In this document: positions 14,135 to 62,744 of the stretch, piece after piece | Numbering within the stretch: position 1 is the first letter of the stretch | Layout of the letters: each line of letters starts with the position of its first letter | Assembly: GCF_010093815.1 (NCBI RefSeq) | Contig: NW_022985555.1 | Coordinates: 1,489,727 to 1,553,726 of the forward strand | Source of the DNA: Pseudovirgaria hyperparasitica | Lineage: Eukaryota > Ascomycota > Dothideomycetes > Acrospermales > Acrospermaceae | Reading direction: 5' to 3' | DNA: 64,000 nucleotides | Made by a program: the position numbers and the translations under genes | The notes under the pieces: generated by a model | What the model saw: only the letters and a program-made list of their open reading frames with translations | What the model was told of the DNA's origin: nothing | The model's database searches: none

Positions 14135-16756
14135 ATGGCTGTTATATGGAGAAGAGATGAGCATTCATACGTGTGTCTTGATAGGAGTAATGATCCCGTG
14201 TAGCATTATAGTATTTGAATGGATCTGAATTGTTGTATAGGAATGCATAGTTCGGAGATTGGCTGGGTCACAGACCATATATATGTCGATACAGGATTCC
14301 CTTCATACGATGTCAAATTCATGTCAGACATATACCAGTATACACGGAAGTCAAGCACATTCGGCCATACCAACCAGAAAGCAAGCGGTCCCGTTCGCTC
14401 CCGCCTATTTAAGCTGGTTAGGGGTGGATTAGTAGTTAGGTGGGTGACCACTAGCGAATACCCACTGCTGAATGTTTTGCTTTTTGACCGCTTGAGTCGT
14501 ATTCATAACGTATATGCCCAGGAGTTATAACAGGTCTCCTTTTAAAGAAGCGATTTTATCTAATCAAGAGGGCCATGCATTGTTGATGAAGTATATCAAC
14601 ACTAATGATCCATTCACAGATGTACAAATAGCATCTATATCTGTGCTAGGAACGTACAGTCACGATCATGATTTCACTCATCCCAATCAACAGATGATTG
14701 TCTTCACCAGCAGTGGATGCTACATCAGCTCAGTCATATAAATCTTTCAAACTCACACACAACAAAGCATAATATGCGCTCTTTCCCACATGCGAAGAGA
14801 CACTGACTCAACAAATCGTCTATGGGGACAACGAGCATCAGATGCCAGGACAAGCAAGCGACGAAGTATACCTTACAAATATTGTAATCAAGTGGGAAAC
14901 GAATAAAGCTCGGTCTACGAAAAGAGTGACTTGTTCAGCTCGCTTGCTATAGAAGACGGGCGGCCAGGACGATCGATTTGTGTGTATGTGTGTGCGGGTC
15001 GGCATAGGGTTTAAGTATGGCTCAGGTATATACGGGCGTATATTAGAAAGGAGGATATGAGGTGTTGGACTTGCACCGTACGTATACTGCTATACTTGTC
15101 CTACTCGTCATGCCTTGTAAATTCGGCATGCGACGTATGAAGCTATTTCATATACGCAGGTGAGCATATAGTTATCTTTCTGGCACAAGCCTATGGACGC
15201 GACATATGGGATCGCTGTCGTCGTGTTAGAACCATATTTCGCGGAATCTGGAAGTTGGTAGTACCGCTATGACGAGGCTGTGTTAACAGGGGATCGGTTA
15301 TGCTTATACTAATCAGAGAGGCGGCACGGTGACCGGGCAAAAGATGCCAGGGAGGCACTTAGCGAACGGATATTGCCTATTGTGCAAGCATTGGGGAGGT
15401 TTGTTTCATGATCACTGGTCATCATCATCATCACCATCGGCTAATGACGGAGGTTAACGGTGTCAACCGTGATCAATGGTCGTCATAATCATCGGCAATC
15501 GGCCAGAGACTACATAACGTGATTCGCGATCGGTTTGCGTCCAATCTCGTCCGACACGTACTGGACATCTCTAGTCGCATTGCCCGACTGGCAATAGAAG
15601 GAGGAATAAGACGTGGGTTGAGGGAGGATGGGAGATACATACAACATACGCGTAAGAGTCTGAGTCAATTCATACCCGGCACGACCGAGAAAAATAAACA
15701 GTAAGGAGGATACCAACGAATGGTAAGCTCCAGTGCGACCTATAATGGCACATTGCACATATATTAATTTCAAAGCCAATACGGAACGCACTTTCCCTAA
15801 GGGCGCAAAGATCATCATGCTTATAGTTTGCATCTACATCACCATGCACCGATGAATATCATCACCATCACCACATCATCTCGGCTACATAGGCCTGAGT
15901 GACCGATCAAGAGCAGACAAGCACATGGGAAGCATCCATCTCATATGTTAGGGCACATAGCAGGACCTATCGAAACACATTAGTAGTGTGTGGATCTTGA
16001 GACAGCGGGAAATTTGAGAGGGCAAGCACCCTTTATATGTGCGGTGTACAATCGGTTGATGAGTGCCAGGTAGGATGGTTGGGGCCTGTGAAGGTATGGT
16101 ATGCGAATGGGCAGGCAAATTAGGGGTATTGTAGGTCATATTGTGAATGGAACAAGCATTGGCACGCTGCTCAACTATGCCAGCAGAGAACGTAGTAGAT
16201 AATCCTTGATCTGACAATCGTCGATTACTGCGGCTAACCATGGATGAACGCGGCTATATTGCTACAGAGATGCCAGCTCTGTGTCATTAGATAAACGAGA
16301 TACACGTCTGATGCATTGGTATAAGTGAAACGCAGAGATATCGTGCGATCCACCCTGCAGTCGGGAGTGAAGTAGAGATCTCCTACGAGGCATTGTCAGG
16401 GGCACTACGCCTTTCAAACCGCAGTCAGGGAGGGAAGTACTACTTCCATCAAGAAGAGCCGAGAGAAGCGGCTCACACGTGTGTACGTGACGTGAAAGTA
16501 ATACAAAACACAACCAGACGCAAACAGCTCATCACAACAGTCAAACATGACACCCCTAAGCACCGCAATGCACCACAAACCGCATAAAATCATCATTACC
16601 CTATGTGCGACTCTACATCACGTGCACCCGAGAAGAAGAACCCCGCTCAACCCAGAGCGTGAAAAAAACTGTATTCCTCACCACGGCTCCAATTCCCTCC
16701 CCGCTTTGCCCCTTACTCTATCTATCTTGGAAGCCCCTTCTTCTGATGGGAATGTT
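14135..16756. other. Gene-free interval, 2.6 kb
   Basis: No recognisable gene. It contains the 3' end of the dehydrogenase gene and CAT/ATC-rich simple sequence, with an imperfect direct repeat around 15407-15500 and more CATCAC-type sequence near 15836-15880. Small frames show no family. Confidence 0.55.
15407..15500. repeat. Imperfect direct repeat with CATCAT-rich core
   Basis: A segment starting CATGATCACTGGTCATCATC (15407) recurs in altered form from 15469 (CGTGATCAATGGTCGTCATA), each ending in ATCGGC-like sequence. No target-site or terminal features of a transposon are visible. Confidence 0.5.
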
Positions 16757-38532: not shown

Positions 38533-41500
38533 ATGCCTACACTACGCGTTGAGCCCTCGCTGCTCTTAGCTGCGCTGGTGCTGCTCGTGTTCTGGGCGCG
38601 GCCCGCCCATGCCTTTGGTGCTGGGAATATCGCCTCTATGGCCAAGATTGAGGGACAGAACTGGCGTCATGGAGATATCGAAGACACTCTCCTGACCCTA
38701 CTCATGAGTCGCGCCACGAACAAGAAGTTCAGCAAGATGGACGTCAAAAGAGTCTACTTCGGGAACTGGCTAAGAGATTACTCACAGGCTGTCGATGTAC
38801 GACCATTGTATCACATGCCCAGTGGGACCGATTGCTGATTGGACACAGGTTGGCACGCTCAAGATGGTCAGCGGCGAAGCTATTCGTATCCTGCTCTGGA
38901 TTCTGGGCTTCATGAGCTTCGGCTATGGAACGAAGGAGTTCGAAGTCACCACGGAAAGACTTGGCTGCTACAGGTGTGATTCTAATGAGACCTCTCTATA
39001 CCCAAACTGACATAATTTCAAAAGACCAGAGGAACACATCGATAACCCCAAAGACTACGCCGACAACATTGATGCCCGACAATATGATCGAAGACTTCGT
39101 GGACCTGTCGATGAGAGACGTGAGCTCAGCATTGACGAGCGCACTGGTCTGAAAAATTACATTGCGTCTGAGGATATTGGCATTACAACTTCTGCTGGTA
39201 TGGTCCGTGACCTTTTCAGACGGTGTGTCGACCTTGGCCGCCGGTACAACCGTAGCAAGAATAAGGCCGAATTCTACGAGGCTCTACGCTTGTTGGGAAC
39301 TGGGCTCCATTGTTTGGAGGGTGAGCATAGCGAGCTTGAATTTCATGGGGTCAGTAATTGACCAACTATCAGATTACTCGGCCCATTCAAATTACACCGA
39401 ATTGGCTCTAATTGAGCTGGGTGAGCGCGACATCTTCCCTCACGTCGGTCGCCGGACACAGGTGCAGATTCGTGGCGCACGCAATCAGGTCTATCCAATT
39501 GTGACCGGGACATTCGGTGGCGTTGACTTCCTTCACTCCGTCATGGGTGAGCTTTCGGACAAGGCCACTCAGTCGGAGATTCAGGAGCTTGAGGGGACCA
39601 TTGCGCAATCACAGAATCAGCAAGCCAACAACAGTCTCTTGAAAGATCTGCTTGACAAGCTCCCGGGAGGCATCTTTGGTGGAAGCGACGAGAAGGGCAA
39701 GGCCGATGAACTCCAGGCCAATGCCCAGGCAGCCCAGATGCAAAACATGAACATCTCTCCTCGTCAGCCAGAAGCGTGGGCGAACCAAATGCAAGAGATG
39801 CAACGCCAAATATACCCAATCATTGAATATCACGACGAGGTTATGCAGGGCATCAGTGAGACCATTGACAAGATTCCTGTTCTCCCGGAACTGGTTGAAC
39901 AGATCCAGGAGCAAGTCAATGTCTTTGTCTTTTCACTCCTTGCCCCATTCGTGCTTCCAGTCATCCGCCAAGTCAAGAATGAGCTCGCCACTGGGTCATC
40001 GGAGATCATCCAGAGCTCCCGGGAAAAGCAGCTGATCGTCTTCCGTGATGACAATTGCACCGATCCAACGCATTCCATGCTATCAAAAGACCACTTTAGT
40101 AATGTCTTGAACGAACCTGCTGGCAAGATTGCGTCACAAGTCCTTAAATGGGCAGTTCCTCAGCTCGTGGAATGCTGGGACGATGAGGGAATCGATGCTG
40201 ACCGCACCATCCACCGCATCATTAACGGTGTATTCCACCATCCTGCTATGCGTGACTACGGCGACGACGGTGCCAGGGATGGTCGCCAGCTCATGTTTGG
40301 CGTTGTCCAGAAATGGTGGGGTGAGATGAGCCGACGCGAACAGGACGATCTCCGCGATAAACTTAGCCGTAGTGGTGTCGAGAATGGCCGCAACCACAAA
40401 GAAGGTGTCCATGACAAGGGTCACGGATGCGGAAAGCCTCTTGGTATGCCTAACGTCGGGACTGCCAACAGCTCTGGAGCTATTGGAGGCGTTCTTGGTG
40501 CTCTTGCAGGCGCTGGTGGTTCCTCATCGTCGGGTGGTAAAGGCGGAGACAAATATACCAAACAAGTTGGCAACCTTGCATCCGAGGCTGTCGGCGGTGG
40601 TGCGCTTGGCGGACTCGTTGGGGGTCTTGTCAGTGGTGTAGGAGCCGACCTTCTTGGTGGCGCGTTCGGAGAGCAGGAGAAGAAGAAGTCCAAAAAAGAG
40701 AAATACAACGATGATGGATCTTACACGGAGACATATCAAGAAAAAGGACATAAGAAATCTGGATCCCGCGGCCGTGAAGAAGAGCGATTTGGTCAAGCCC
40801 AGTACAGCCAAACGACCTATCCTGGTGGCGGACGTCGCGAAGAGTTCTCTCGCTTCGAACAGGATGGTCGAGGTGGCGAGCCGTACGGAGTACAGCAACG
40901 CGTCGAGACCACCGGTCATGGACGGGCCGGCTATGAACAGACTGAACAGACACGTTATGATCGACCGGGAGGCCAATGGGAGTCGCGCGAGTCACGTGAA
41001 GGCTATGACAGCCGTGGCGACTATTACCAGACTGAGACCAAGTAAGTGCACCCCAGATCGGTGTGTTACCTATTGCTAACAGCAGAAGATCCTCCGGCAA
41101 GAAGTCGAAGAAGCAGGACTCTGAGGATGAAGATTCCGAAGACAACGGTGAGGACGACTGGAAGAAGCGTGAGAAGAAAGAGCGTAAGAAGCGTGAAAAA
41201 GAAGAGAAGAAGCGCCGCGAGCAAGGATATGGCGGTGGCCGCGACAATGATTCCGATGAGGAGAAGAAGTACAAGAAGAAGAGCAGTGGCGAGCACAAAC
41301 GCCGCTCTGGCGAAGGTGGCCACCAGCAGTCTTACGGCCAAGAGCGGAGCTATGGCCAAGAACAGTCATACGGTCGTCAAGAACAGTCTTATGGCCGTCA
41401 AGAGCAGTCATCATACGGTGGTGGTCGTGAGCAGGAATCTTCCTATGGAGGAGGTGGTGGCTATGGTCGCCAGGAGCAGTCTTACGGCGGCGGAGACTCA

Positions 41501-44047: not shown

Positions 44048-45518
44048 TTACAACCAGCCGAAGTACTTCCACAACAGGTTCATCCCACTCAACAAGCCCG
44101 TCACGCTCGTAAACGCAATCATGGGCCCGAAGACGCCCGCATACCCGATCCCACTGTGTCCATGCGCCGCTGCGCCATGCACAAGCCAATCACTCAACGG
44201 GCCCGAAACCATATTCCCAATGCCCCGACCTAGTACCAGGAGCGAATACACTGCGAGGGGATCCGTATAGCCGTGTCCGGCGCGCTCGGCCCGGCGCGCA
44301 ACCTCGCTCATAACTTCGGGCCAGATAGACGGCCAACCGCCGGCAAAGAGTCCATACGCAACACAGAAGGTGTATAGCGCAGGGAGCGAGCTGGAAAAGC
44401 CCCAGAGCAGGGCTGTGGAGAGGGTGGCACCGAGCGCGGAGACAGCACCGCAGGTGGTCGGGTGCCAGTGGTCGGCGAGTGCACCCATGGCGACGCAACC
44501 GATGGTGGTGGCGCAGTTGAGCACGATGAGGGCGAGGACAGATTGGGTGTCCGAGGCATTGAGGGCGACGCGGGCGTAGAGGGGCAGGTAGATGGCCGGG
44601 AGGAAGTAGCCGGCGGCCTGTATGAGGTTTGCGAGCTGGTACAGGGCGAAGACGCGGGAGCCTAGACAGCGCATGCTGAGCAAGCCGGTATGTTCGTCTG
44701 AAGTGTCGATCTGGCGCGGCTTGATGTAGTATGCTAGGGGTACTGTTGCGATGCATGTTACGCCGGCCCAGATTTGCATTGTGCTTGCGAAGCCGAGCTC
44801 GCGGAGCATGCGTTCGAGGAGGGGTGGGAAGACGACGCCACCGAAGCCGCCGGCGCTGAACATGATGCCCATGGCTAGGGATTTGCGCTTGATGAACCAT
44901 TGGTCGATGTAGATGATGCAGGGGCAGAAGGCGAAGCAGCCTGCCAGGCCGAACGGCACACCGAGCACGGCGATGAGCTGGGGGACTGTGACACACATCG
45001 AGCTTGCGGCGAGGGAGAGGGAGGCGACTAGAAGGCCGGCTAAAGTGAACCATCGAGCAGCGTGGGGAAGGCGGCGGCATAAAGCAATGACGAGGGGTGT
45101 TCCCATGTACAGGATGCCCTGAGAAGCGTGAGTCAACAACAGTCAGGCTTGTCAGTTGGATGTACTCACTGTAGTTGTCGTCCCTATAGCAGCGATGTTA
45201 TTGGCGCCAGCAAACGGTGGGTGACTGCTGTAGTAGTCCTGGAAGACCCCAAACGACAGCCCGAAGCCTGGAAGATGTGTACTCAGTGGGTGTACCAAGG
45301 AATATTGCACGATTGTACTCACCGAAGACGAACGCCTCAACTACCCAGCATGCTGCCAGGAACAGCCAGGCCTCTCTGCTACTATCGGCCTTTGCAGGCG
45401 AGGCACCAGGCGTATAGACTTGCTGCCCGGCATCTGGAGCAGCCTCCTCTTGTGGCGTGGTGACGTCCTTGGGTAGAAGCGGGTCACGCTCTCCGGGCTG
45501 CCGTGACGCTGGAGACAT
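44048..45518 (-). CDS. MFS transporter, monocarboxylate-transporter-like
   Basis: Exons 45323-45518, 45170-45267 and 44048-45118 give 454 residues; introns are 55 nt (GTGAGT...TTCCAG) and 51 nt (GTGAGT...CTCAG). The N-terminal 55 residues are hydrophilic with the dileucine-like RDPLLPKD. Twelve membrane segments follow, the first rebuilt by splicing (AWLFLAACWVVEAFVFGFG, then LSFGVFQDYY, typical of fungal MCT-like proteins). Other features are GILYMGTPLVIALCRRLP, IIYIDQWFIKRKSLAMGIMF (loop 4-5 motif) and GALADHWHP (loop 8-9 motif). The substrate of fungal members is rarely known. The MCT name reflects fold similarity and is not a claim of lactate transport. The start MSPASRQ at 45518 is preferred over an in-frame ATG at 45602 because that extension is low-complexity. 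A role in arsenic handling beside acr3 is not supported. Confidence 0.88.
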
Positions 45519-47434
45519 ATTGAGAGACGGCGAAGGAGTTGGCGAGGAGAGGATGAGAGGCGTGAGATGAGGAGTGAGGAGGGGGGAGGGCAGAGAGATC
45601 AACTTGAGGGACGAGAAGAGGAGAAGAGTGAAAAGAACTTCAATTCGTGGTTGTCATACTACGTAGTCCGTGCTCCAAGGTCCGATCCGGGAAGAGCCCA
45701 CACTATCTGTACTACCATTACAGCCACTCCCATTGCGCCGACACGACATAACAAAAGAAAAATGATTAGTCAATACACACCCATCTAGCCAGCCATCAGC
45801 AAGACATTGTGACGTAGTCCGTGCTATACATCTCCTATTCCCGATCCAGTAATCCCTGCACAAACAATATGCATGGTCAGATCAAAATCCGATCTCTAAT
45901 CCCAGCAACGAATCAGAATTTGCTCTCTCCCCTGCCCTCCCAGCACTGTGGGTCCATCTCCCAGCCTGACGGGCTCCAAATCCTGGTCCTGGTCGCGGAT
46001 CCATCCATTCATCCGAATCGATGTATAATATATATATATAAAATGTTTGATATTCAATGTCAATCATCCACTAAATAAACGTCTTATCTCTTTCTGCTCT
46101 TCAGCACCACTAGCAAACCAGGTTTTTCCCTGCGATAAGTAACATACCAGCGAGTCCAGCTAACGACGACTTTGGCTAGCTAGCATAACACACATAGCAT
46201 AGCATAATATAATATGACAAACATAGCCTTATTCCTATGATCAAAACACAACATCTTTCGCATCTATAGTTTCGCAGGAGCTTACCACTTACGTACTCTC
46301 TGTCTACTTTCCAGTCTCTTCCCAGTATCGCTCCTCTCTATATCGCGTCTCATATACCTGAAACCTTCATCTCACAGAGGCAACCTCACGATCGTGTTTT
46401 GCACTGTCCCATCATGTCCAGACAATCCCCCCGTTAAAAGACTAATCTCTTTCTACCACTTTCTGCAACCGCCCTGCACAAATTCTCGGCTTACTTCGAG
46501 TGAGTCCAAGCTGGATGTAAGACGCGGACTCCGGAGAGCAAGACTGACTCAATCAATCGATAAAACACAGGCCGCCAGCACATTAAAATATAAGCCATAC
46601 AAAACCCTACACTTTACACACAGCACAGCACAACACATAACACAGCACATCACACACAACACACATCAAACGCATTCCGCAATATAAAAGGATCACACTG
46701 TTCTATTCTTCTTCTCAAACAAGACTTTCACTACTCCTTCTATTCCATTCCGCCCCAACACGCAATTTTTTTTTAATCGCTTTACCCTACTATCCTTCCT
46801 TTTCCACCTCAGGACTCTTGAGTTGTCGGGTATTTAATGCCAACAAGAAAGAATCGCAAAGCAAAGCAACACCCCCATAACAAAAAGCAGAATGATAGAA
46901 AACCCCAGGTGCATGCTTCCCGGCCCCCCAAAAATAACCGCGCGGAAAATGCTGCATGAACGAGAGATGGCGCAATGCAGAATAGCAAGATGTGAATATG
47001 ATACTGTGATATGTGGTATGCATGATATGCACGAAGCTGCCGCTGCGTGTGCGACCTGTATAAAATGTGGACAAAAGGCAAAAAAAACATTAAACTTTGG
47101 AGGGAACAAAACGCCGTCGCTAAATGCCTGCTACCTTTCTTTCTTTTTCGGTTCTCTGTCTTGCGCCACGGCTTTTGGGGATGTGTGTGTGAATGTGTAT
47201 ATATGTGTGCGTTGATGATGGACAAGAGACATGCCCGGAAGCGAGTGACTGGAGAATATACATGAGAGGAGCGCGGATATGACTCGTGGTGGTAGTGGTA
47301 CCCGGTATAATGAGGGAGGTATGACGTGGGTATTACTAGTGACTTTTGTTTGATAAAGGATGAGAGGGCTCGTGATGCGTCCGTGCGCGTATCATGTGTA
47401 TGTATGTAGGTGCGTAAATGAGTGGATGTACCGT
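45519..47434. other. Intergene, 1.9 kb
   Basis: The MFS promoter (left) and the gtb3-like 3' region (right). Simple sequences are present: AGCATA/ATAATA near 46190-46215, a (TA)n near 46027-46040 and CACA-rich DNA at 46616-46670. No gene is seen. Confidence 0.6.
46616..46670. repeat. ACACAGCACA-type simple repeat
   Basis: An A/C-rich run of ACACAGC, ACAACAC and CATCACAC units about 55 bp long. It is noncoding. Confidence 0.75.
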
Positions 47435-50400
47435 TTATACATCGCGCACATGCGTCGCCGTGTGCAGCTTGCTCGGCACGTATTGGCTACTGCGCGTGCT
47501 CATCGCGCTTTGGCGTCCGTTCTGGATATTCAGCCGGGCGCCCAACGGCGTGACACGACCCGGGGAGTGCGAGTCGTCGAAGGACATGCTGCGCGACGAC
47601 GGCGCGCCAGACGGACCGCGTGAGTGGCCGCCGCGGGCATCAGGCGACGACTGGCGAGTGCGTTTGAGCATCGGGCGTGCGACAGCGATGCTCTCGTTGT
47701 CGCTATCCCAAGTCTCCGGGGTGAGGTGACCGAAGTTCTGGCGCGAGGAGGAGGGACCTTCGTCGTAGTAGACGGAGGAGAAGGAGGTGGCGCGGGAGCC
47801 GTGCTTCATCCAGGCGGGCTTGGGGTGTTCCATCTTGGCCATCTGCTTGTCGAGCGTAGCGCTGGAGCGGTTGCGCTTCGAGTGCATCTTCTCGGCCAGG
47901 TCTGCGCCGTCGGTAACGTCGGGTACCATACGCTCTGGCATGCCCAGCATCTCGTAGTTGGACTTGCCGATCCAGAGCATCTGCTCGTGCTCGCGCAGGT
48001 AGCGGTCGCCGGAGAAGGACTTCTGCACAATCTGCCTCGCCATCATGCCGAGCTTGCGGCGATGGTCGCTCTTCTCGTACATGCGGCGGGTGATGATCTC
48101 TACGTCCTGAGGTGTTGGCTTGATTGGCAGGATTGGAGCTGGATGGGCTGGGTCATCATCAGCGTAGGCTGCCCATTGGTCGATCATGGCGAGCAGATTG
48201 ATTTGGGCTCGGGCGAGAGCGTAGGCGTCGTTGGGTGCTACAACCTCGCTGTAACGCTCATTGTCGTCTGGATCAGTCAAGACGCGAAGGGAAGCACCCA
48301 CATCGGTACAGACCACAGGCGCACCAGTCAGGGCAGCTTCACCTAGCGCGAGAGGCAGACCTTCAGACACGGAAGAGTTCAGGAACAGCCATGTGCTTTC
48401 CAGCACCATACCGGGATCAGCAGTACCGCGAAGTGTCACCTGAGTGCCGAGAGCTTTGCAAGCGATAATCTCTTGACACTCCGAAGAGTAGACTGGAGCT
48501 TTGTTGAGAGCACCGTAAATGTCCAGCACATAGTCCTTGAACCCCCATTCATTGGTAATGATGTCTGCGGCGAGAAGAGCAGTCTTGATATCCTTGGCAA
48601 ACCAGACGTGCGACAACATAGTGACTGTTGGCCTCTTCGTCTTGATCTCCGAGACTGGCGCGAACTTCTGCATATCGGTAATACCATTGACGATGGGGTC
48701 AACCTTGCGCTTGAAGACATTGCGATGAGCGATGGTGCCATTCGACGTTCCAATCTCGACTTCCCACCCTGGATTAAAGAAATCTGCGCATGGAAGAATC
48801 TGATCGGCGTGATGAAGAGTGAGAGTAGACGTAAGCTTCATCAGACCTAGTAGCGAGTTGCGGATGAAAGGTGGCATGGTACAGAGCGCCGAGGACAAAT
48901 AGAGGTTTGTCTCACGCCATGAGATAGCATGATCCCAAATCTGCAATGTACAGTTGCGCTTGATCTTGCATACGATGCCGTAGGACGCAGACACACTGTG
49001 GTGAGAGGCCTGGAAGACGGCAGGTATCTGCTCAGGAATTGGGATCGAGAAGATGAACAAATAACGGAACCACAGGTCCAAGGCAGTCTCAAGATGACCT
49101 AGAGTTGGCAGCTCAGTATCGAACCACTCATTTGGAGGTTTGGCGTTTGGCATGTCGTCCGCGAGCCACAGGTTGCGCCAGGCTTCCTTGACAATGTCGC
49201 TTGTCCAGACCTGAGTCCAGTGGCGCGAGTCCTGGAAATAGGTATTGAGATTCACAAGAGCACGGGTCGCTTGCTTGAGGTCGGCCTGGGTCATGTTGAT
49301 TGCTCTAGCACCCCTTACAAGAGCTGTCAGAGTGGGTATGAAGTTTTGCTTGATATCATCTGCGGTAGCGCTCTTGAAAAGATGATCGACCTCGCTGTCT
49401 AGTTTGTTGGAGAACATGCCATGCTGGGGATGCAGAAAGTCCAGACCCCAGAGAGGAATGATCTTGAGAGACTCTACGTTTTCTTCGGTCTGATGCTTCG
49501 GTAGACCAAAGTCGTTCGCAGACTCGACAACCATGTGCCAGCGGATGGTCTTCAGATTGTTGATCAAATCTCTGCGGCAAGCAGAGACACCGCCACCCTC
49601 GTTGGGCCAAGTACCGGTATCGACAGCGATGACGTGCAGGGTATCGTCATTGTCTGGCTGCAGATGCTTTGTTCGCGTATAGATCACAGCATCACCACCT
49701 TGTCCGAAGCTGAAGAGGTCACTCAAGCGGATAGCAAGGGGTGTCCAGGCACTGATATCGGTCGTGAGTTCTGCGCTAGCCATGACTGCATCAGCATGGA
49801 GTGCAAGATAGTCCTCAGCGCGGGCAAGGTTGCACATGTTTCGTGCCTTCCAGTAAGGTCGCAGAAGGGAATCGCCACGAAGTAGTTGTTCATCCATCCA
49901 GCGAACGACTACTCCATCGATATCTCGCCGCTTCTTCCAAGCCTTCCACAATTGCGAGCGTGCTCTAGACGTAGATACCGGAATACGACGCTCATTGAGT
50001 CTGAGCACCCGGCTGATAACACCATAGTTGAGTGAGCTGAAGTCAAACAGAGGATTGTCGTCAATGAAGGTTGAGTTCGAGGGCTTCTTCAACACCCCGA
50101 GCCAATCGTGTTTGATCATCGGAGGGGTATCGATGAAGTGTCCGTTCAATTTGGTAGTGACCGTGGGGTGGAATTTGTGGTCGTAAAGCCAGCTACATTC
50201 AAACACGTCGGCACCCTGCACGAAAGTTGCTTCGTGAACCCTTGTATGAGGTATCCAACGCTCAAGCTTCTCGGGATGACGAACCGGCGCAGCGCACCAG
50301 CTGACACTACAAGACATGTGCGGAAGAACAAAGTCGGCTCGCAGCAACTCATCATCGTACTTGGCGTTTTTCCGGTAATGGTATTTGAATCTGACAAGAT

Positions 50401-53400
50401 TGCCGTCGAGCATGTATGTACCGGACTCGATGTGACCTTTGTAATTGTACTGGACTACAGCACCTTCCTGCTTACCTCGGATGCAAGTTCTGGACATTGG
50501 TATCTTGGTATTGGCCAGAGCGCCGAATTTGGTAAGACGACGTGCTTTGCGGTCTGAGGGATAGTCGTAGATGTACTCATTTTCCATCTCGCCTTTGACA
50601 AACTCTGTTCGAGAATAGAGACGCATGTCTTTCGAAAAGGTACTGATCCGTGTCGAGCCAGTCTCGGGCTCCGTCTTCAATGTGCCATTGTAAAAATGCA
50701 GCTTAAAGCCCTCATTCGCCGCACGATGAATAAACGCCGTGCTAGTGGTGTCAAGATATTGTATATTTAACCGATTCTTCATAACGGAAATCTTGGTGCC
50801 CTTGATATTATTCGAGAGAAGCTTGAGATCTCTGCGGCGGTGGAACACAAACCACGCGATCGAAATCGATTGAACGAAATGCGAGTATCGCCACATCAAT
50901 GTCAAGAGAAATGTGACGACAGTGCGGACTGGTTTTGGCTTTCCGGTCAGGATGCAGTTTAGTTCTCGATGGTATTCCGGATCGGCAATGGTTGCAAGGA
51001 CAAAAAACTTGATCCATATACCGATACTATGGTACAAGTGGGCGAACGGTCTCTTGATGGCTGATCCAATTGCCAACAGGAGGGACTTTACAGATCGCGA
51101 CGGTTTCTTGTCCTGGTAGTAGTGGATATCAGCAGTCTGTTGCTGGTACGCCTTCTCATTCATCGCCATAGGGCCTTGAGTGCGGAAGTAGTTGTAGCGT
51201 TGGACTGAGAATAGCGCACCCAGGTCGTATCGAGCAATACGAGTCGAGAGCGAACATCCTTCTTCTGCAGAGACGTTATGCTCGATCCAGTACATGTGAT
51301 CAGCTGTAATCACCGTCGCTTCACCTAAGCAACGAGACAGGAATGCAAGCCTCATGGTGAGAGGTAGCTCATCCCAAGCGGTTTCACAGTCTACACCCAA
51401 AGACAGATGCCTGAGGAGATCCTTGCGTGAAGCCAACGCGAACGCTTCCATCTTCGACTCCGAGAATTCAAACGGCATGGCGCGCTTGACTGCTTCAGAG
51501 ACTTGGTAGTTGCCGCTGTCGTGAGTACTGCACGTAAGAATTGATTCGGCGATCAAGGCTTGATCGTGCGTCAACCCAAATACAGATTCGGCACATGCAT
51601 GCATCAATGTCTCTGCAATAGCGCGACAGTTGCTGCTCACGTTTAGCGGATTGTTGATATCATCCGAGTCGGACGCAATTAGTAGCTCGAGGGTGCCCTC
51701 AGAGAAACAACTAATAGCCCGGATGTCTGCCTCTGCCTTGACCACTGAACGCATAGAGACAAGTTCGATGGATATTGTACCAGCTTCCCACGCCGACACG
51801 ATGCGGTGTGCGAGATACGGCGCAGTGGGGAAAGCATCCAAAGCAATACGAGACAGCGCATTCTGGTCACATGACAGCAAAATAGACTTGATCTCAGTCC
51901 CAGGATAGCCACTCGAGTGAATGCTGAAAGTCTCTGCTGTTTCACTGTTCTTGATGGCATCGTAGAAAGCCTCGAGCTCACTCTGACTCCATTCGTGGTT
52001 GACACCGACACCACCATAGTGGTGGAACTTCCGTTGCTTTTGGGAAAGTTTTGGCTTTAGAGATCTTGGTAGTCCGATCTTTGCAGTGTGAATAGACAGG
52101 ATGGCGGCTGTCCAAGTACAAATGCCAAGAGCAATAACGTCGTTCCACACATCACCGGCGTTGAAACGCTTGAGAAGTAGTCCTAGGGGGAGACCAATGC
52201 CCACAGCGAAAAGAAGGGGATGAATGACATGTGGGCCGGAGAAGATCTTGTTGTACTGGTAAAGCAACAGGCCAGTGTAAGCAGCCACGTACGACAAGAA
52301 CATCTTGAGTGCGAGCTCTGTGCCGTTGAAGATCCAGATGAGAGCAGCGGTGACGCCCAAAGACCAGACGTGCACACCGAGGAATCGGAACAGGGTGGTC
52401 CAGTACATTCTTTGTTTGAACTTCGCATCGTTGACAATAGCTTCGTGTATGTACTTTGTGGAGCGGATCGAGATGGGACTGCTCTGAGCGGCGGCCTGGT
52501 GGAGATGCTGCGCTTTGTAGTCCAAGAGGACAGCTCCAACAAGATAGTATGCTAGACCGAATCCTACAGCGACGCGATAGGAAGTGTTAAAGCTCGCACC
52601 GAGAATGCCATTGATTGGCTGGCCACTGAGAAGAGTGACCCATCGATCCAACAAGGCCACGAGGAAATATAGCAAGCCACAACCAACTTCATCACCAGCG
52701 TTTCTCCAATGAATGAAGGAGTTGTGCAGTCTGATTCCCTTCTGGTTTTGTTGCAAACTGTCGTAGGCGACTTGTGTTTCCAAGTTCCAGGTCGAGCTGT
52801 AAGGGATCGGGCGCTTCACATCAGACAAACGACAATACCAGTTCAAGAGGAAGATTGTTGAATCCCAGCATTCGGCAAGTTCGCGCACAAGCTTGTCAGC
52901 TTCGCTCTTCTGCCAAAACTTTCGGTTCTTCTCCTTCATCACAGCGTTGTAGAGATGGGCACGACATAGTGCAAGGATGGCTGGTTGGCTGAGACCGTCG
53001 AGCGTGTCTTCCTTGCCATTCTGCTTCTCGCGGATGTACCAAGCTTTGACGGCAGCATCGTCCACACATTTGATGTGATTGCACCAATCGACCCAGCGTG
53101 AACCAACCCATCTGGTCCCGAGAAGGAGGAAAAACACAAATATAAACATGACCACCAGGTAAATGATCACATCATGATCGGGAATCCACATGGTAATGAT
53201 GGGAGCAATAAGCAAGGTCGGAATCAGGTAGATAATAACATAGCGCCCATTGAGGAATGACGATCCGGGAAATTGGTATGTCGAAAGCACGGCCAGGATT
53301 GATAGATATGCTGTGAATCCCACAAGATAGAAGAAGAAAACGGCACCAATCTGTGGAGACTTGACACCACTAAGAATGACGAATCCGAGGATACCACCAG

Positions 53401-56326
53401 CAAAAGTAAAGGCGAGACCACCCACAAGACGAGTGATCACGAACATGTTTGCAGCTGAGAAGGCCATGGAGATGAGATAGTAGGTTCCACCAATAGAAAT
53501 CCAGGTACCAATTACACCGGAAAGAAGTAGAGATATCATGAGAGCGAGTGTAGCATATTGCGATTCTTCGTGAGTCATAAAGGCACTCAAGTACAGTCCT
53601 CTTCCAACGCAGGTGAGCAGAATGATGTCGACCAGTGCGGGAATGGCGAAAACACTAAGAAACGTGAATCTGCGGTACGCTGGCATCAGTGCATCCTTTT
53701 GATCCGGATCAATATCAGTTTGTGCTGCAGCATAAGCAGAAGCGAATGCTGGAGCGTTGTCGATCCACATTGGCGGCTGGTTCTCGGCTTTGTTGTAGTG
53801 AAGTCGATGGCGATCCGACAAGAGTCGACCAAACATACTTGGGGCCACATCGAAGTAGGTCTCACAGCGCGAACCAAGTGCGAAGAGCTCGGCGAAAGCT
53901 GCGCTCTGGTCCGAGAACTCGTTGAAGAGAGGGTTGCGGTCTGAGACTTCGAGATAGACTTCATCAAAGGCGGCCTTCCTCGCGGCGCAGAAGACACAGA
54001 AGAGGACAAAGTCGGAGCAATAGTCCAGGATATCGTCTGCGGTAAGACTCACCAGGCTCTTGGTAACAACCTCCAGCTTGTCGTGGTCACAAGTGTGAAG
54101 GATGCGTTGCCACTCGGCCTCTACATCGCGGAACACCTGTAGAGCGTATCCATTGTCAAAGACACCACGGTGATGCTGACGATACCAATCCATACGGACT
54201 TCGACAAGCTCTTCATCGGAGATGGTGCCGTTGATGTACTCAAAATTGGAGACATGCTTGAGTTGCTTGTACGACGGAATGTCGATGAGGACTTCTCGAC
54301 AAGATCGCTGCAACGAGCTCAACAGCGGACAAGAGTGGTCCCATTCCGAGAAGCGTAAATGCTGCATGAAAAGAAGGACATCGGTGGGAGAGAGGAGTGC
54401 GATATCTTGCTCGATGCGCGGCGGGAGTTTGTCAAGCAAATGAAGCCCGGAATCAAACTGGCTGCGCGCATACTCAGCGAGAAAGCACTGATAGCGTTGG
54501 AACGAGCGATGACTCAGATATGTATGTAGAACGGTGCCTGTGAGGTCTGTAGCATTTTTGGAGACATAGATGATGAGAGCACCACTGCGCTGGTCGATTT
54601 CAAAGACAGACCAGAACTGAGCGCCAGAGGGCGTTCTGAAGCCAGAATCCAGTCCCAGATAGACCTGAATCGGGTCCTCAAAGTCCTGCTCGCCCTGACA
54701 TTTCCCGCCGAGAGAGCTGAAGTCGTTGATGGCTTGCCGGAGAAATTGCGGCATCTGCGGACCTCTGTTGTTGGTGTTGTTGGCAAGTGGCCGCAGCCCC
54801 GACCCCATCTCTCTCAGCCGCTCCGACGGAACACGATTCAACAGTCCGAGAGTCCGCAAACGCTGCTGCGATCCGAGAATCTGTATGAAGTCGTCGCGAG
54901 TAACGTCCATTCCGACGGGAAAACACCCCGCTCCGTCGTGTGCTGCACCTGTCGGAGAATATGACAGCGGGTTATTAGGGCTTCGCTGCATATGCTCTGT
55001 CCACTCGTGCCCGGTGCGACCGTCGGCATAGGGGAAAAGGGCCCAGCTCGCGTCTCCATCACCTCCTTGCACTGTCAATGTTGACGCACTGGAGCTGTTT
55101 AGAGGGCTCTGAATAGAGGACTCGCGCGCCACTCTGAGCAGGTCGGCCACGCTGGGGAAGATGGTGCTAAGGCTCTCGTACTCTGGCGCAAGCTGAAAGT
55201 CCACAGCATCCAGGTTGCGAGTCGACCGCAGTGTCTCGTGGATTTTCATCACTCGGTTCTCCTTTAGCCACTGGAAAGATGCGATTGGATCCGTTTTGGG
55301 CACATTTTCAACAGCGTTTGTCAAAGCCGATTCCGAACCGATCCAGACCAATGCACCATGGTAGCCGCACCACATGAAGGATCGCTTCACAACAGCATGC
55401 GACAGCGCAATATCGTTTCGGACTGTTTCCCACATCATGACTGTGAATGGCCGTAGGCAAGCTTGGGCAACAAATGCCTTTGTCGTTGTCTTCATCTTGT
55501 CCATGTCGAAGAAATCTCGACGCTCGCCATCCTCCAAGATCGTGGCGTTTCTGACGACGACTCCGGAAAAGTGCTCGAGCTTCGGGGCTCGCTGGCCTTC
55601 AAGAAAGTTCGGTGGTGCAATTTCCAGATACGTCTTCAGGCCAAGTCCTTCCAGAAGTTCACCCAGCGCGTTCAAGAATGGAGTAGGAACAATGCCCTCC
55701 CAGCCTGCCACAAGAATCCCTTGGAAGTTGTTACCCTTCCGGCCGAACATGGACTCGATCTTCCTGACTATGTCATCAATTGTTTTAATCATCACGGCTG
55801 ATTGCAAGAGGTCAGTGTTGTTTATGACCATCCGCACGTCCAAGCGGCCAACCAGCTGGACATGGTCGGATTTTTGCTCTAGCCGGATCGCGTCCAGCAC
55901 CCCTTGCTGTGTTGGGTCCAAGATGACTATATCCCATTGTGAGAATATCCGACTTTGAGCTGCGGTTGGCGGCGAGGAAAAGGCTCCAAGGTAAACGCCA
56001 AAGGAGGACGGCTTCGACGACAGAACAACGCTACCTAGGGGATGGGTCTCTTGGGCGACTTGTCGAAGATGTTTCAAGACATCAGTTGGCAGTACGGTCA
56101 GGGTGGTGTCTCTCTATGGCAGTGTCAGGTAGCTTCTTCACAACAACGACAGCTGACAAACCTTGAGGTATCTTGCCAACCATCGAATGAAGGTCAGTAA
56201 TATGTTTACAGAACCAATTAGAACACAGGCTCCAATAATTGCTACGAGGACTATCTGCCACCAGTGCTTGAGCAATCCATCGCTAGCGAAAGCACTGATT
56301 GTCAAAATCTCTGGGCTTTGCACCAT
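47435..56326 (-). CDS. gtb3: Gtb3-like membrane glycosyltransferase (GT4/PelF-type), galactosaminogalactan synthesis
   Basis: Exons 56162-56326 and 47435-56113 (48-nt intron) give 2947 residues. Order: an N-terminal membrane helix (WWQIVLVAIIGACVLIGSVN), then a luminal/extracytosolic-looking hydrolase-like region (about 75-330; FGVYLGAFSSPP, DIVILDPTQQGVLDAIR, ILVAGWEGIVPTPFLNAL). Next come a helical region and three membrane clusters at about 860-1060, 1190-1410 and 1755-1815. The C-terminal GT4 domain (about 2190-2800) has the PelF-like entry TWPNEGGGVSACRRDL and an intact EX7E motif, SEGLPLALGEA (E2639, E2647). The tail (about 2800-2947) is Ser/Arg-rich. In Aspergillus, Gtb3 is the proposed polymerase/exporter of the Gal/GalNAc polymer GAG. 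It faces an agd3-like gene across 4.2 kb. Orthology is inferred from this architecture and the neighbouring agd3. UDP-GalNAc/UDP-Gal use is inferred. Confidence 0.87.
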
Positions 56327-59300
56327 ATTGACTGTGAAAGGGCGTGAGCGTGGCTCTACGAGCCTTGCTGAGAGAGGGCCAGGACGTTGGGTAAAGCCCA
56401 GTCGTAGCTGGGGTTTTCTAACGATTATAGAAGGTCGGTATGGCGGGTATCAGGAATAGACAAAGCTCTCGGGTATGCGGAGGGGTAATGGACAGCACGG
56501 GAGCAAGGATTAATGGTGAATGAGGGAGTGAATAGTAATGAGGGTAAAGAAGAGGAGGCCGAGGTGGTGGTGAGGGAAGAAAATGATATGAAAGATGTAC
56601 AAGGCGGTATGTTCCAATTCCAAAAGTGATCAACCTCTACGGAATGGAGAGGATAAACACAAAACTCAGTGATTGTGACATGTAGACATGTCGGAACGTG
56701 GCACGCGTCTGGGAGCAAGGTGAGCAGTAGTGAAGAATGGCCAAGGAAGCAAATGATGGATATGATAGCTACTAAGGCAGAGGCGAAGTGGGAAAGCTAA
56801 TTAGTTAGATCTTGGGCAACACATTGTGTCATAGCACGGGCCCTGAAGCAGTGGATGTTGAACTGAACCCAGAGCACAAGCCCAGAGTCAAAGAAAGGGA
56901 AAAGGGTATGGAAGGGGGAAGGGGAAGGGTGGAAGAGTGGAAGGGTGTAGAGAGAGGCTAACGATTGCGGGCACGGCACAGAGCAAGCAGAGCAAAAGGC
57001 AGAGGGGCCCGTAGCGAGTCGGGCCCACCAAAGCATGTCGCCATGGCATGCCCAGACATCGAAGCGCCAGGGGACTGTTACCGCCTGAAAGTGGATGCTC
57101 AGTAAGTTACAGTGCATTAATAATGATGATAGAAAAGAAAATGCACGGAAGACGGGCATGACGGCCGAAGAACAATATGTGCCTGTTCTTGTGACAGATC
57201 TGTGCTGTGCCCCCCGGTACGAACACGGACGCCTGATAATAAGATGTAGTCTATCGATACGCCACGACTGGGGGATTCATGTGGTAGGACTATGGACGAT
57301 GGAGTATGGACTATGGAGTGAAGCACTGTCTGACACGCAGTTGGGTCCCCTCTCTCGTGTTTTCATGTCAGCGCCCCAAGAGACCGGCCTAAACGGTGCT
57401 GACAGGGACTAAAGTTAGTATAGAGTAGCATATTCGTGAAGAGCCTTATGCCGGCCCTTCCGCCTCCCCCTGTCCTAGTCCCTTGCCCTTGTTCATTCTT
57501 TGGTGTCTGGGCGTCAGTCTGAGGTTTCCTCGAGCGCGGCTAAACCTCAATCAATAGCGCAGCATGTGGGGATCGTAGACCCTATCGCATGAGGGCAAGG
57601 CTCATCCAATCTGGCTTAAGTCTCGAGCCGACGTCTACTATATGTTATGTGCAATGAACGGTTACAGTCTTCCTACACCCTCAGACTGACGGGCTGGCTG
57701 GCTGACTAGCTGGCTGCAGCTGCACCTGAAACTCGAATGATTGACCCGACAGCCCCCAAAACGTTTGTCGCCTCGTCCCGATGCCGGCGGTGGTTCGCGA
57801 TCGGCGCTGAAAGAAGGGAGCATTTAAGAATGGGAAAACAATAGCGACAGTGACGGTAGTGGTATAGTGATGAGTAAAGAAATGTAGAAGAATCTCCTTG
57901 TTAACAGAAAGAGGGAGAGTGTGTACATACTCGCAAGCGGGTCACTCGTATTCGTCATTCATCAGTCGTCATTCGTTCTTTGTCCATGGCGGAACCGAAC
58001 TCGTGTATTTTTGTTTTCAAAACAGGCATCTTTCTACTGGCTCGGATGTTTCAGCCATGCAGCAGCATACCCCTCCCCCTCCCCTGCCCCATACACTACA
58101 CTTGACCTCTGCTTACTCTTCTCTTTGTGGTCTAGCCGCGGGCTCGTCCACAGCCACTGCTCATTGCCCACTTCTCGAACGAACCCTTCGCTTCTTTAGT
58201 GCTGACAGCTGGCACACTTTGAAAGGGGGGAGGGGAGGGGGCTGAAGAGAAAGCTCCCGTTCTATCCGTATCATCCGTTACATACTCTTCACCGCCCATT
58301 CCTTTCATACAATACTCAGCTGCTGCTTTCCGTACCGTACAAGGTTACAGCGCATCCCATACCCACAAAACCATAATATGTACGCATCCCAACCCTTCAT
58401 ACAACCAAAACAATACATCATTACCTCCACCAATGTCTTTCTCTGCCTTTGTCTGCATGCAACACACGCAGGCTGGTTTCTCCGCTGGCTTACCGTACAT
58501 GCAGTTCCACATGAACGCTCACAGTCTACGGAGTGGCCACTTAGGCAGTCGGACAGGTCCTGGTATCAGCATCGTCATCGAGATCATCACCAGGACCAAC
58601 GACCGGGGCAGCACATCTACCGCCTCCGTCGTGAACGGTGAACGCCTCGATATCATGAGACCACGATTTCTGACAGCGCGAGAGGCGCCGTTTGAGTCAC
58701 AGCTTTTGATGTTTCTTCGCTTGATACTCCCTGTATGTGTGCCTTTGACGTGCGCACTCACTGATATTGATCAAATGACACCTTTCAGCCATGCCACGAT
58801 GGTTGTCCTCGTGCCTGCTCATGGAGTCGTGTGGTGTCAGCCGTTCCATTTTGCATGATACAAGCATTGCTTATTCCTGGCCATTCTGCTTTCTCGGGTC
58901 GAACGCCAGCGGTCTGGTCGGTGATACGAGCCATGCGTAGCACTTGGCTCAATAATGGTACTATGTATACGGCAAGTAGACGACAGCACACAATGCAGAT
59001 GCACGTCGTGAACATTGGATGCATCGCTCTCAAGCTTTTCCGCCCTATGCATTTCAACAGGCATATATCCCGTCCCGTCTACATAATGCTAATACCCAAT
59101 ACCGAGACACGTCGTCCGTTACTTGTTACTATGCTTTTGATGATATGTCAGATACGCCCAGACGGCGATTCATGTGCTGAGAAATACGCCACCTGCTGTG
59201 TACTATACACTCCCGTTCATCATATCAACCAACTATTCAAGCCACGACCACAACTTGTCTCGTGTGTGCAATCTCACCCCAAAAAGTCAATATATCATAT

Positions 59301-60530
59301 ATTTTGACTCGTAATCGTTAGCTGGAAAGTCTCAGCCCTCTGCCAACCATCTTGGCTAATGAGCTGGACTATGTTCTAAAAATTATCATTACCATTATTC
59401 TGTCGGCCGCCACACACACTTCAGCTTGCTGAGTTTCTCGTACAAAGGCTAACTTATGGATCTGTTACGATGGTGGAGCGAGTGGACCTCATTGACCCCG
59501 TAGTTCCTGAGTGGAACCAAATGCCAATTGCTGCTTCGCGAACTGTACCTTGGAACGTCCTCTAGCTTTTGAAAGATCCGGTAACACCAGCCGCCAGCGC
59601 GAAGTGGGTGTGGGTATTGCGGACACCAGCGTATACCTCGCGTGCTCGACCCCGAAATTCTAAGCCACAGCCACAGATTATGAACTCATTCTTGACAAAA
59701 ACTCCCGACGATGAGCGTCTAGGCCATGAACGACGGCCCAATATTTACGGCATGGCCGCCGCTGGCTCGCTCGGCATCTTGAGTGTGTTGAGTGGAGTTC
59801 GCTAGAAGTAAGGGCAACCATACCACGTTACGTTAGGGGTAAATAGAATTGACTATAGGGCTGGCACGCCGGACTGGATACAAGGGATACACTTAGGGCT
59901 GCTCGACAATGAATGTTAGTGGACGGACTGCTGCTGGGGACCCCCCTGGGCTTCAAAGCCTCGTGTTGGCAGTTGTTGCAGAGGCAGTTGCACATCCATC
60001 ATGATCCCCAGGGATAGACACATCATCACTCACTTTGCATAGTCTTATTCGTTCACGTCAGGAAAATGGGCGACTCACAACAGCTGCTGCTGGACATCAG
60101 AAGTCCAGACGGTCATGCAACGAAACGCCTCTCATCACCACCTGAGTCCAGCCTCCAGTGCCTATGCAACTCTGATCATGTCCCCACCGTATGGCTTGCG
60201 CTTACTTACCTCTTCGGACCTTGCCAATGCCTCCCAATCGGGAAATGACAGGATCCGATAACGAAGCCATGCCCGTTTCTTCGCTTGGCTGCCTGAGAGA
60301 AACTGATTCTTGACTTTGAGCCTAGACACTATACGGGCGATGGTCCGTCTGCTAAGGTTCTTATACACGCCCGCATCGCCCTGTTATCGATATATTCTTC
60401 ATCTGTGGTTTTCGTCTTCATCTCCATCTTCACCTTCATCTGCCCCTTTTGTACCCTACCCTTCATCACGCTCGTTGTCTTTCTTCGCTTTTTAGTTAGG
60501 TGTGGTTGTATTCCACACCACTCGTCGCTC
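56327..60530. promoter_or_regulatory. Gene-free 4.2-kb interval between gtb3-like and agd3-like genes
   Basis: The two start codons face outward, so this is their shared upstream region. Near the gtb3 side is a G-rich run (56897-56929) and near 58221-58241 another. The agd3 leader (60395-60490) is strongly pyrimidine-rich. Frames inside, including 58433-58858 (+) and 59683-59805 (+), show no recognised family; the latter (MNSFLTKTPDDERLGHERRP start, 40 residues) has acceptable codons but no support. No tRNA was seen. Confidence 0.6.
56897..56929 (+). repeat. G-quadruplex-compatible G-rich run
   Basis: Five runs of three or more G (starting at 56897, 56904, 56914, 56921 and 56927) are separated by loops of 4, 7, 2 and 2 nt, which meets the usual G3+N1-7 pattern. 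It lies about 570 nt upstream of the gtb3 ATG on the opposite strand. Confidence 0.7.
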
Positions 60531-62744
60531 ATGGCACGCTTCACCTTTGCAAGCCTGTGTCGCCGGGCTGTTGCACTCGCTTTCACTCTCCCAGCCCTCA
60601 CAGCCGCTGCTACCGTAGACAGCACCATTCTCATCTTCGCCCGCGATGCAGCCTCAGCTTCCTCGGGCTATTCTGGTCTACAGGGCTACGGTATTCCCTA
60701 CCAAACAGTCATTGTGCCATCAGCCGGTATCACACTACCAACCCTGAACTCTTCAACCACAGCCGGCAATTACGGTGCCATCGTGGTGATTGGAGAAGTC
60801 AGCTACGACTATAGTGGCAGCTTCCGCAGCGCTCTCACCGACGCCCAGTGGGCTCAGCTATACGCCTATCAGTCTTCCTTTGGAGTCCGCATGGTCCGAC
60901 TCGACGTCTATCCTGGTCCCAACTTTGGTGCGACTGCCACTTCCGCGACCGCGGATGACCAGCCCATTAGCATTAGCAACATGTCGGCTTTTGCAACTGC
61001 AAATCTCAAAGCGTACGCATCCGGTCCTTTCCTTGATTTGATCTATTGATTGATGTGCGGCTGGGATCTGATCCCTTGCACCCTTGGCTGCATGATCTGA
61101 GCGCCCGCATATAATCTATTCCTCGTGGTTGCGTCGAACGTGCACTGACATCAGAACAGGGGTGCCCAGATGAGTACGGCCGGTCTTTACCATTATCCAG
61201 CCTCGATCACGAATACCTCCCTGGCCACCGAGGTCGCCCAATTTGCGACCAGTTCTGGCCCGGCGACTGCAGCTGTGATCAACAACTTTGGTAGCAACCG
61301 ACAGCAGATGGTATGGTTTCTGCCATTCGCAACCGAGTGGTCTGCTACGTCGAACTTCTTGCAGCACGCATGGATCCACTGGGCCACCCGAGGGTTGTAC
61401 AGCGGGTTCCGCCGCATCTATTTCAGCACCCAGGTCGACGACATGTTCCTGGCCACCGAGTTGTACGAGCCGGCCGGGACTGAATTCCGCATACGCACCA
61501 GCGATCTGAACGGCATCAGGGACTGGATTCCCACAATAAATGCGAAGATGCCTGGAGGTTCGAGCTACATTCCCGAGATTGGTCACAATGGCAACGGAGA
61601 TATCGAAGCTGCCGTGACTCTGGACTACAACAACAGTCCCGCCAAGTGTTCCCCTCAAGAAGCCATCGAGTACGATGAACAAGTCGACACCCCCCTCGAA
61701 TTCAAGAAGAACCTTGGCAGCGGGACTGACATCTGGCCCGCTACCCCTACTGCCTACGCCTGGTCGCTGAACTGTGCCAAGCTCGATGCGCTCGAGCAGT
61801 GGTGGACAGTCGTCGCAAACCGAGACGCCTTTGCTCACGTTTCACACACCTTCTCGCACTCCAGCTTGAACAACGCGACATTTGCCGACGCTAACAAGGA
61901 AATCACTTTCAACACGGCCTGGTTCCGGCAGATTGGTTTGTACTCGGCCAAGTACTTCTCCACCAAAGGTCTGATCCCGCCCGCCATCACGGGTCTGCAC
62001 AACGGCGATGCCATCCGTGCCTGGATCCAGAACGGCATTACAAACGTCGTCGGAGACAACACCCGGCCCGTCCTCCGCAACACCCAGAGCTCCTTCTGGC
62101 CCCTGACCTCGACCGTCAACGACAATGGCTACGCAGGGCTGAACATCATCCCGCGCTGGGCCACGACAATCTACTACAATTGCGACACACCCGACTGCAC
62201 GCTGCACGAATGGATCAACACCTCCGGCGGCAGCGGCGACTTCCAGAACCTCCTTAAGGATGCTCGCACCACAAACTCCCGCAACCTGCTTGGCCTGCAC
62301 TGGGACCCCTTTATGTTCCACCAGGCCAACCTGCGCTACACTGACATGCCCTCCACCGTCGTCAACGGCGTCTCCCAGAAGCTCTCCCTAATCCAGATCT
62401 GGGTCGAGGTCGTCGTCAACGAGATGGCCCGTCTGACCAACTGGCCCATGATTACGCTCAAGCACGACGATCTCGGCGCCGCCTTCATTGCGCGCCAGAC
62501 CCGCGATCAGTGCAGTCCAAAGATCAAATGGACCACCAGCACAGATGGCAAGACCATCACCGGCGCCACCGTCACGACTACGAACAACCAGTGCGGCACA
62601 AAAGTTCCCGTCACCTTCCCCGGTAAAGTCACGAATACAAATGGCGCGACCACGGAGCAGGTTGGCGGCGATCCGCTCACGCTCTGGGTCACTATGTCTG
62701 GCGCTGCAAAATCCTTCACGCTGCAGACTCCCATTCCTGTCTAA
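60531..62744 (+). CDS. agd3: Agd3-like secreted polysaccharide deacetylase (galactosaminogalactan)
   Basis: Exons 60531-61012 and 61160-62744 give 688 residues. The intron is long for this window (147 nt, GTACGC...GAACAG). In Aspergillus, Agd3 (carbohydrate esterase family 18) removes acetyl groups from GalNAc residues of secreted GAG, giving the polymer positive charge needed for adhesion and biofilm. A signal peptide is present (RRAVALAFTLPALTAAA). An N-terminal alpha/beta region (about 25-160) leads into a NodB-like deacetylase domain. Motif 1 is STQVDDMF (D254, D255) and motif 2 is HVSHTFSH (H390, H394), giving the metal-binding Asp and two His. Later come SSFWPLTSTV, LGLHWDPFMFHQAN and a beta-rich C-terminus. 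No GPI tail is seen. The start MARFTF is chosen because the longer frame upstream begins in the pyrimidine-rich leader. It is divergent from gtb3. Confidence 0.88.

Follow-up and report, generated by a model that had tools for sequence, protein, structure and literature searches.

A probable gtb3–agd3 gene pair of a galactosaminogalactan locus in Pseudovirgaria hyperparasitica, and the part of its large synthase shared with bacteria

In a 64,000-nucleotide stretch of the genome of the ascomycete Pseudovirgaria hyperparasitica (contig NW_022985555.1, positions 1,489,727 to 1,553,726; hereinafter, the window), we analysed two large divergent genes, one encoding a very large membrane protein and the other a polysaccharide deacetylase. 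We hold with high confidence that they are gtb3 and agd3, the synthase and deacetylase genes of the galactosaminogalactan (GAG) locus of filamentous ascomycetes, with the remaining genes, ega3, sph3 and uge3, most likely situated to the right of the window. A sequence-only reading had placed the pair in such a locus, and this is very probable given the Agd3 match and the PelF-type glycosyltransferase (GT4) domain encoded by the neighbouring gene. The locus is an ordinary one, a further and partly seen case of a type already known from many Pezizomycotina; among more than 250 fungal genomes, 28 species had been reported by 2016 to have the GAG cluster (PMC4817252). Gene models, domain identities, active-site residues and the gene neighbourhood were established here.

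The deacetylase gene

Both gene models were predicted from the DNA sequence, using open reading frames (ORFs) and splice sites. The agd3 gene (60531..62744, forward strand) consists of exon 1 (60531-61012), an intron (61013-61159) and exon 2 (61160-62744), and encodes 688 amino acids (aa). Its uninterrupted ORF covers 61149-62744, and the intron is the sole frame-keeping GT-AG pair among the donors searched in 60985-61045 and the acceptors searched in 61080-61171.

In a comparison of the exon 2 frame with the PDB, Aspergillus fumigatus Agd3 (6nwz) was the sole distinct sequence at E ≤ 0.01, with E 9e-203, and the spliced product is 56% identical to it across 528 aa. Three Pfam domains, all above their cut-offs, follow each other in the order characteristic of Agd3: the intron-split CBM87 domain (60615..61382; PF25116, E 2.7e-55 and 4.3e-30), the CE18 deacetylase domain (61422..62525; PF25115, E 3.4e-180) and the Agd3 C-terminal domain (62544..62735; PF25117, E 9.5e-25), all on the forward strand. 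The CE18 domain carries D254 and D255, H390 and H394, R493, M546 and H548, which align with D377, D378, H510, H514, R613, M666 and H668 of the A. fumigatus enzyme; the latter are described as the catalytic base, the metal triad, an arginine, the methionine of motif CM4 and the catalytic acid (PMC7229062). When the exon 2 product is aligned with six bacterial relatives, no variation occurs in the columns of the two aspartates, the three histidines and the arginine. The sequence-only reading had recognised an Agd3 pattern from the VDD (61434-61442) and HTFSH (61845-61859) motifs, both on the forward strand, and it is fully borne out: because of the PDB match, the three domains and the seven active-site residues, the identification of the gene as Agd3 (CE18/CBM87) is as secure as a sequence-based one can be.

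A hydropathy scan shows a hydrophobic stretch near the N-terminus (residues 18-36, score 1.51). The residue range cited for A. fumigatus Agd3 extends up to 806 (PMC4817252), compared to 688 aa here. The serine-rich stretch described at residues 38-129 of the Aspergillus protein is missing or very short, since CBM87 starts at residue 29.

The synthase gene

The gtb3-like gene (47435..56326, reverse strand) comprises exon 1 (56326-56162), a 48-base GT-AG intron (56161-56114) and exon 2 (56113-47435), and encodes 2,947 aa. Exon 1 accounts for 55 residues, including one hydrophobic segment, and exon 2 corresponds to a stop-free ORF of 2,892 codons (47435-56113). For both genes the ORFs lie where the sequence-only reading had put them, the gene models being slightly larger, each by an added first exon.

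Kyte-Doolittle windows reveal two hydrophobic blocks, of six segments at residues 873-1055 (53114..53662) and of five to six segments at residues 1198-1399 (52082..52687), both on the reverse strand; with the segment near the N-terminus, this simple hydropathy scan gives 12-13 segments in total. Both the size and the number of segments are in line with about 2,900 residues and about 11 helices expected of Gtb3, and close to those of Verticillium dahliae VdGtb, a protein of 2,856 aa with 11 predicted transmembrane regions that is needed for GAG (PMC13245733).

The PelF-type GT4 domain occupies residues 2208-2704 (48167..49657, reverse strand), as found with a hidden Markov model (HMM), hhalign, Pfam and NCBIfam. 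The HMM, built from 54 PelF rows of the bacterial agd3 loci described below (among them three fragments from short ORFs in L040, L043 and L044), matched the protein at E 6e-38 over HMM positions 6-447 of 496, the reversed protein giving E 0.06; the hhalign probability of the match is 99.6. PF13692 and PF00534 exceed the Pfam cut-off near the C-terminus, GT4 being the sole family above cut-offs in the whole synthase. The very large membrane protein with a PelF-like GT4 domain, as proposed earlier, is thus what these searches recover.

Two glutamates, E2639 and E2647 (48338..48364, reverse strand), the EX7E pair of GT4 enzymes, are identical in 54/54 bacterial PelF rows, and K2562 is a lysine in 53 of them. 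Of the 90 columns that 90% or more of the bacterial rows conserve, 38 have the same residue in the synthase. An AlphaFold model of the domain, made with 28 bacterial relatives, has mean pLDDT 67 and pTM 0.65 and matches PDB enzymes of the GT-B/GT4 type, the best being 7qsg (E 7e-10), with TM-scores by query length of 0.24-0.48 among the matches listed. Because of the PelF-type GT4 domain, the similar size and membrane segments, and the place beside agd3, it is very probable that the protein is Gtb3, as judged from sequence.

In the open-licence papers on galactosaminogalactan, Gtb3 and PelF, as far as their accessible text goes, a PelF domain in Gtb3 is not described, and we make no claim that it is unpublished. 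The VdGtb domains are shown in a published SMART figure whose legend gives eleven transmembrane regions, the terms "GT4" and "Pel" being absent from the text of the paper (PMC13245733).

Arrangement of the pair

The genes are head to head, as had been noted: their 5' ends face each other across a divergent intergenic region of 4.2 kb between the two start codons (56327..60530), and transcription proceeds outward. A crude codon score, trained on the synthase and agd3 themselves, is 0.24 for synthase exon 2 and 0.36 for agd3 exon 2, compared to values below zero for all six larger ORFs of this region. StuA-type sites (WCGCGWNM) show no enrichment, the window having 45 of them where 58 would be expected.

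Bacterial agd3–pelF loci and the Pel system

A scan with an Agd3 alignment of genome_contigs, in which 84,980 species are represented by a single genome each, yielded 226 confirmed stretches; the best 80, together with five plasmid loci, formed a set of 85 loci, which is Agd3-sought, Streptomyces-rich, includes near-copies and is bounded by contig ends. The BLAST search for partner genes used only queries from Deinococcus and Streptomyces, hence distant partners may escape, and pelF was counted for ORFs of at least 400 aa. On these terms, agd3 is found in 84/85 loci, pelF in 52, an uncharacterised membrane gene in 46, an epimerase-like gene in 45, GH114 in 43 and Spherulin4 in 41; all five functions occur together in 29/85 loci. 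Both agd3 and pelF are present in the same stretch in 51/85 loci, in 49 of these 51 on the same strand. In plasmids, tblastn retrieved two Deinococcus records that each have homologues of both Agd3 and PelF; in a third record, matched by Agd3, a pelF gene is annotated in the vicinity.

The membrane gene is multi-spanning, with 464-516 aa in four plasmid copies, and is situated at most 300 bases from pelF in all 46 loci having it (L001, L002, L004, L005 and 42 others); no Pfam or NCBIfam family was found in the two copies scanned. We consider it a candidate export partner of PelF in the agd3 operons. An Agd3 homologue without any of the five partner families in the available stretch, some contigs being short, was observed in 30/85 loci; these agd3-alone loci include many of L014-L047 (Nitrosospira, Burkholderia and relatives), plus L003, L049 and L090, and the homologues are perhaps lone Agd3 enzymes.

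Bacterial agd3 operons have been described previously (PMC7229062), and a bacteria-to-fungi transfer has been suggested (PMC4817252, PMC7229062). The operons of Streptomyces, Deinococcus and others resemble the fungal locus in that a PelF-type GT4 gene and an Agd3 homologue lie close together, in many cases accompanied by GH114, Spherulin4 and epimerase-like genes. Unlike the single 2,947-aa protein in the window, however, pelF and the membrane gene are separate in bacteria, and bacterial Agd3 is only 21-26% identical to the window Agd3 (alignment with six bacterial rows). The donor was resolved neither by the Agd3 tree (86 rows), where the two fungal rows group together, their stem measuring 2.9 changes per column and the tree carrying long-branch warnings, nor by the PelF tree (55 rows), where the end branch of the fungal row measures 10 and the position of this row is not usable. 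In viral contigs, one stretch matched the synthase pattern and was not confirmed, and none matched Agd3.

Pfam has models for other Pel proteins. Beyond the GT4 domain and a sub-threshold DUF3492, Pfam gave nothing related to Pel in the synthase at E 0.1, and in this the protein differs from the Pseudomonas Pel system, with which it shares a PelF-type polymerase. The Pel product itself is reported to be partly deacetylated and rich in N-acetylgalactosamine (GalNAc) (PMC7229062).

Shared and unshared parts of the synthase

Using phmmer, we searched five synthase segments against 5,165 ORFs from the 85 loci. The glycosyltransferase segment alone matched, with the best E 6e-17 and 63 matching rows up to E 10, the other four segments being at E 0.13 or worse. 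Only about 500 of the 2,947 residues have a counterpart in the bacterial agd3 loci examined, in a map that compares a single fungal sequence with bacterial genes from a single type of locus. Profiles of the membrane gene, GH114, Spherulin4, TM1410 and Agd3, compared with the protein by HMM and hhalign, gave chance-level results only, and a PDB search with the protein gave E 0.25 at best.

Two candidate resemblances were rejected. The bacterial membrane gene seemed to be present inside the large protein, but the initial tblastn match was weak (E 0.025) and nothing followed by profile; in the six-frame window the best hit of its profile is at an unrelated position, 13171-13407 (E 0.036). Similarly, a GH114-like barrel at residues 60-420 is unsupported, HMM, hhalign and PDB searches all being at chance level; the single-sequence AlphaFold model of this region has mean pLDDT 35.

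We tentatively suggest, considering it somewhat less than evenly probable, that the synthase is a mosaic, in which a bacterial PelF-type polymerase was joined to a scaffold of about 2,450 residues, in part membrane-bound and in part soluble, that has no counterpart in bacterial agd3 operons; a single protein would then have replaced the multi-gene bacterial machine of synthesis and export, the export path being its own. Absent sequence similarity does not prove a separate origin, and a fold shared without similarity in sequence would also be compatible with the data.

Comparison with fungal GAG clusters

The A. fumigatus cluster (gtb3, agd3, ega3, sph3, uge3) is alike in having a large membrane GT4 protein beside an Agd3-type deacetylase, a neighbourhood implied by its gene tags and by the contact of agd3 with ega3, and differs in that ega3, sph3 and uge3 are not visible in the window. 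An Agd-type deacetylase is also present in the clusters of V. dahliae, Neurospora crassa and Metarhizium robertsii, where function is reported as shown by gene deletions. In the N. crassa cluster of 30 kb the synthase has the first gene tag and the deacetylase the last (PMC11356417), and the gene order of M. robertsii differs from that of A. fumigatus (PMC8224951). Since the synthase and deacetylase of N. crassa stand at opposite cluster ends, the order in the window, as far as the sequence extends, is Aspergillus-like.

Completeness of the locus and alternative explanations

Several points weigh against identification of the pair as gtb3 and agd3 of a GAG locus. The DUF3492 match (PF11997), directly in front of the GT4 domain, is under the curated Pfam cut-off, and the NCBIfam PelF model scores 67 bits against a cut-off of 100. 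H2557 (48608-48610, reverse strand) replaces an arginine found in 53/54 bacterial PelF rows. The likeness to Gtb3 was judged via bacterial PelF profiles and the published description of VdGtb, rather than a fungal Gtb3 sequence. Finally, as the sequence-only reading had stated for the epimerase and the two hydrolases, the GH114, Spherulin4 and epimerase-like profiles yielded nothing credible in the six-frame 64-kb window (best E 0.42), these profiles being built from the bacterial agd3 loci with no fungal positive control; the bacterial PelF and Agd3 profiles did recover the synthase and agd3 in the same search. A glycosyltransferase and a deacetylase are present at one locus, and the published rule for selecting GAG clusters also demands an epimerase and a hydrolase or spherulin-like gene (PMC4817252).

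That these genes were not found in the window could mean that the locus is reduced or dispersed, with only gtb3 and agd3 together and the epimerase and hydrolases elsewhere in the genome or lost. We regard this as unlikely, though the most probable of the alternatives. It agrees with the failure to find a hydrolase or epimerase within the 64 kb, with the variable order of the cluster among fungi, such as Metarhizium, where the orientation of genes differs too (PMC8224951), and N. crassa (PMC11356417), and with the lack of coding signal in the 1,256 bases from agd3 to the right end of the window (best codon score 0.064). On the other hand, the window stops 1.26 kb past agd3, in the direction in which the epimerase and hydrolases are situated in Aspergillus: the gene tags of A. 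fumigatus are 3G07860 for gtb3, 07890 for ega3, 07900 for sph3 and 07910 for uge3 (PMC4817252), agd3 adjoins ega3 (PMC7229062), and hence the absent genes would be expected exactly beyond the window end. Moreover, most cluster-bearing species are reported to show synteny (PMC4817252).

The same negative result, together with the histidine in place of the conserved arginine, would fit a non-functional remnant, which we consider the least probable explanation, as an open frame of 2,892 codons, an open agd3 frame and preserved active-site residues are unexpected in a decaying locus. The pair could also be paralogous, making a different polymer or one differently used, since paralogues exist: in M. 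robertsii an additional Agd3 is described that shares 64% identity with the one in the cluster, no second synthase being mentioned in this account, in the parts available (PMC8224951). As the deacetylase in the window adjoins a synthase, like in the GAG cluster, and is 56% identical to A. fumigatus Agd3 over 528 aa, a paralogous pair appears very unlikely, if slightly less so than a remnant.

A true gtb3–agd3 pair of a GAG locus remains our preferred explanation. The window content is what would be expected of a standard GAG locus severed at this point and, because of the published Aspergillus order, a continuation to the right of position 64,000 is favoured, ega3, sph3 and uge3 most likely being located there.

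Neighbouring genes

To the left of the synthase there is an MFS transporter gene (44051-45142), followed by SBF and Het-C genes identified by Pfam, which was run on 19 chosen ORFs of the 53 non-overlapping ones in the window; the ORF at 45201-45653, with no Pfam match of its own, is probably part of the MFS gene. As these genes adjoin leftwards, the synthase is the left edge of the visible locus. The Het-C heterokaryon incompatibility gene (39153-41042, forward strand) matches PF07217 at E 4e-135. Such a neighbour, like the presence of introns in the genes, gives the window a fungal character.

Elsewhere in the window, two adjoining ORFs at 9451-10823 on the reverse strand both have double-stranded RNA binding matches, one of them also having a Dicer dimerisation domain, and possibly form one spliced gene. 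A lone 5S rRNA gene (14357-14476, forward strand; 87 bits with gathering threshold 38) is situated among protein-coding genes, and no tRNA was found in the 64 kb by ARAGORN in its bacterial setting.

Implications for GAG synthesis

By analogy with studies of A. fumigatus, N. crassa, M. robertsii and V. dahliae, from which the activities, the polymer, its export and adhesion are inferred, the PelF-type GT4 domain of Gtb3 would act on the cytosolic side, linking galactose and GalNAc from their uridine diphosphate derivatives as an alpha-1,4 chain, and the membrane part of the protein would let the chain out. Secreted Agd3 would then strip acetyl groups, making the chain cationic and able to adhere to surfaces and to the hypha itself.

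In moulds, GAG serves as an adhesin and as a polymer of biofilms, and one more genome with the synthase–deacetylase pair contributes a further observation on how widely it occurs. The comparison with bacterial loci gives a first map of the synthase, in which the PelF part is detectably common to bacteria and the remainder is not. A defined stretch of the protein is now marked for the study of how the chain leaves the cell.

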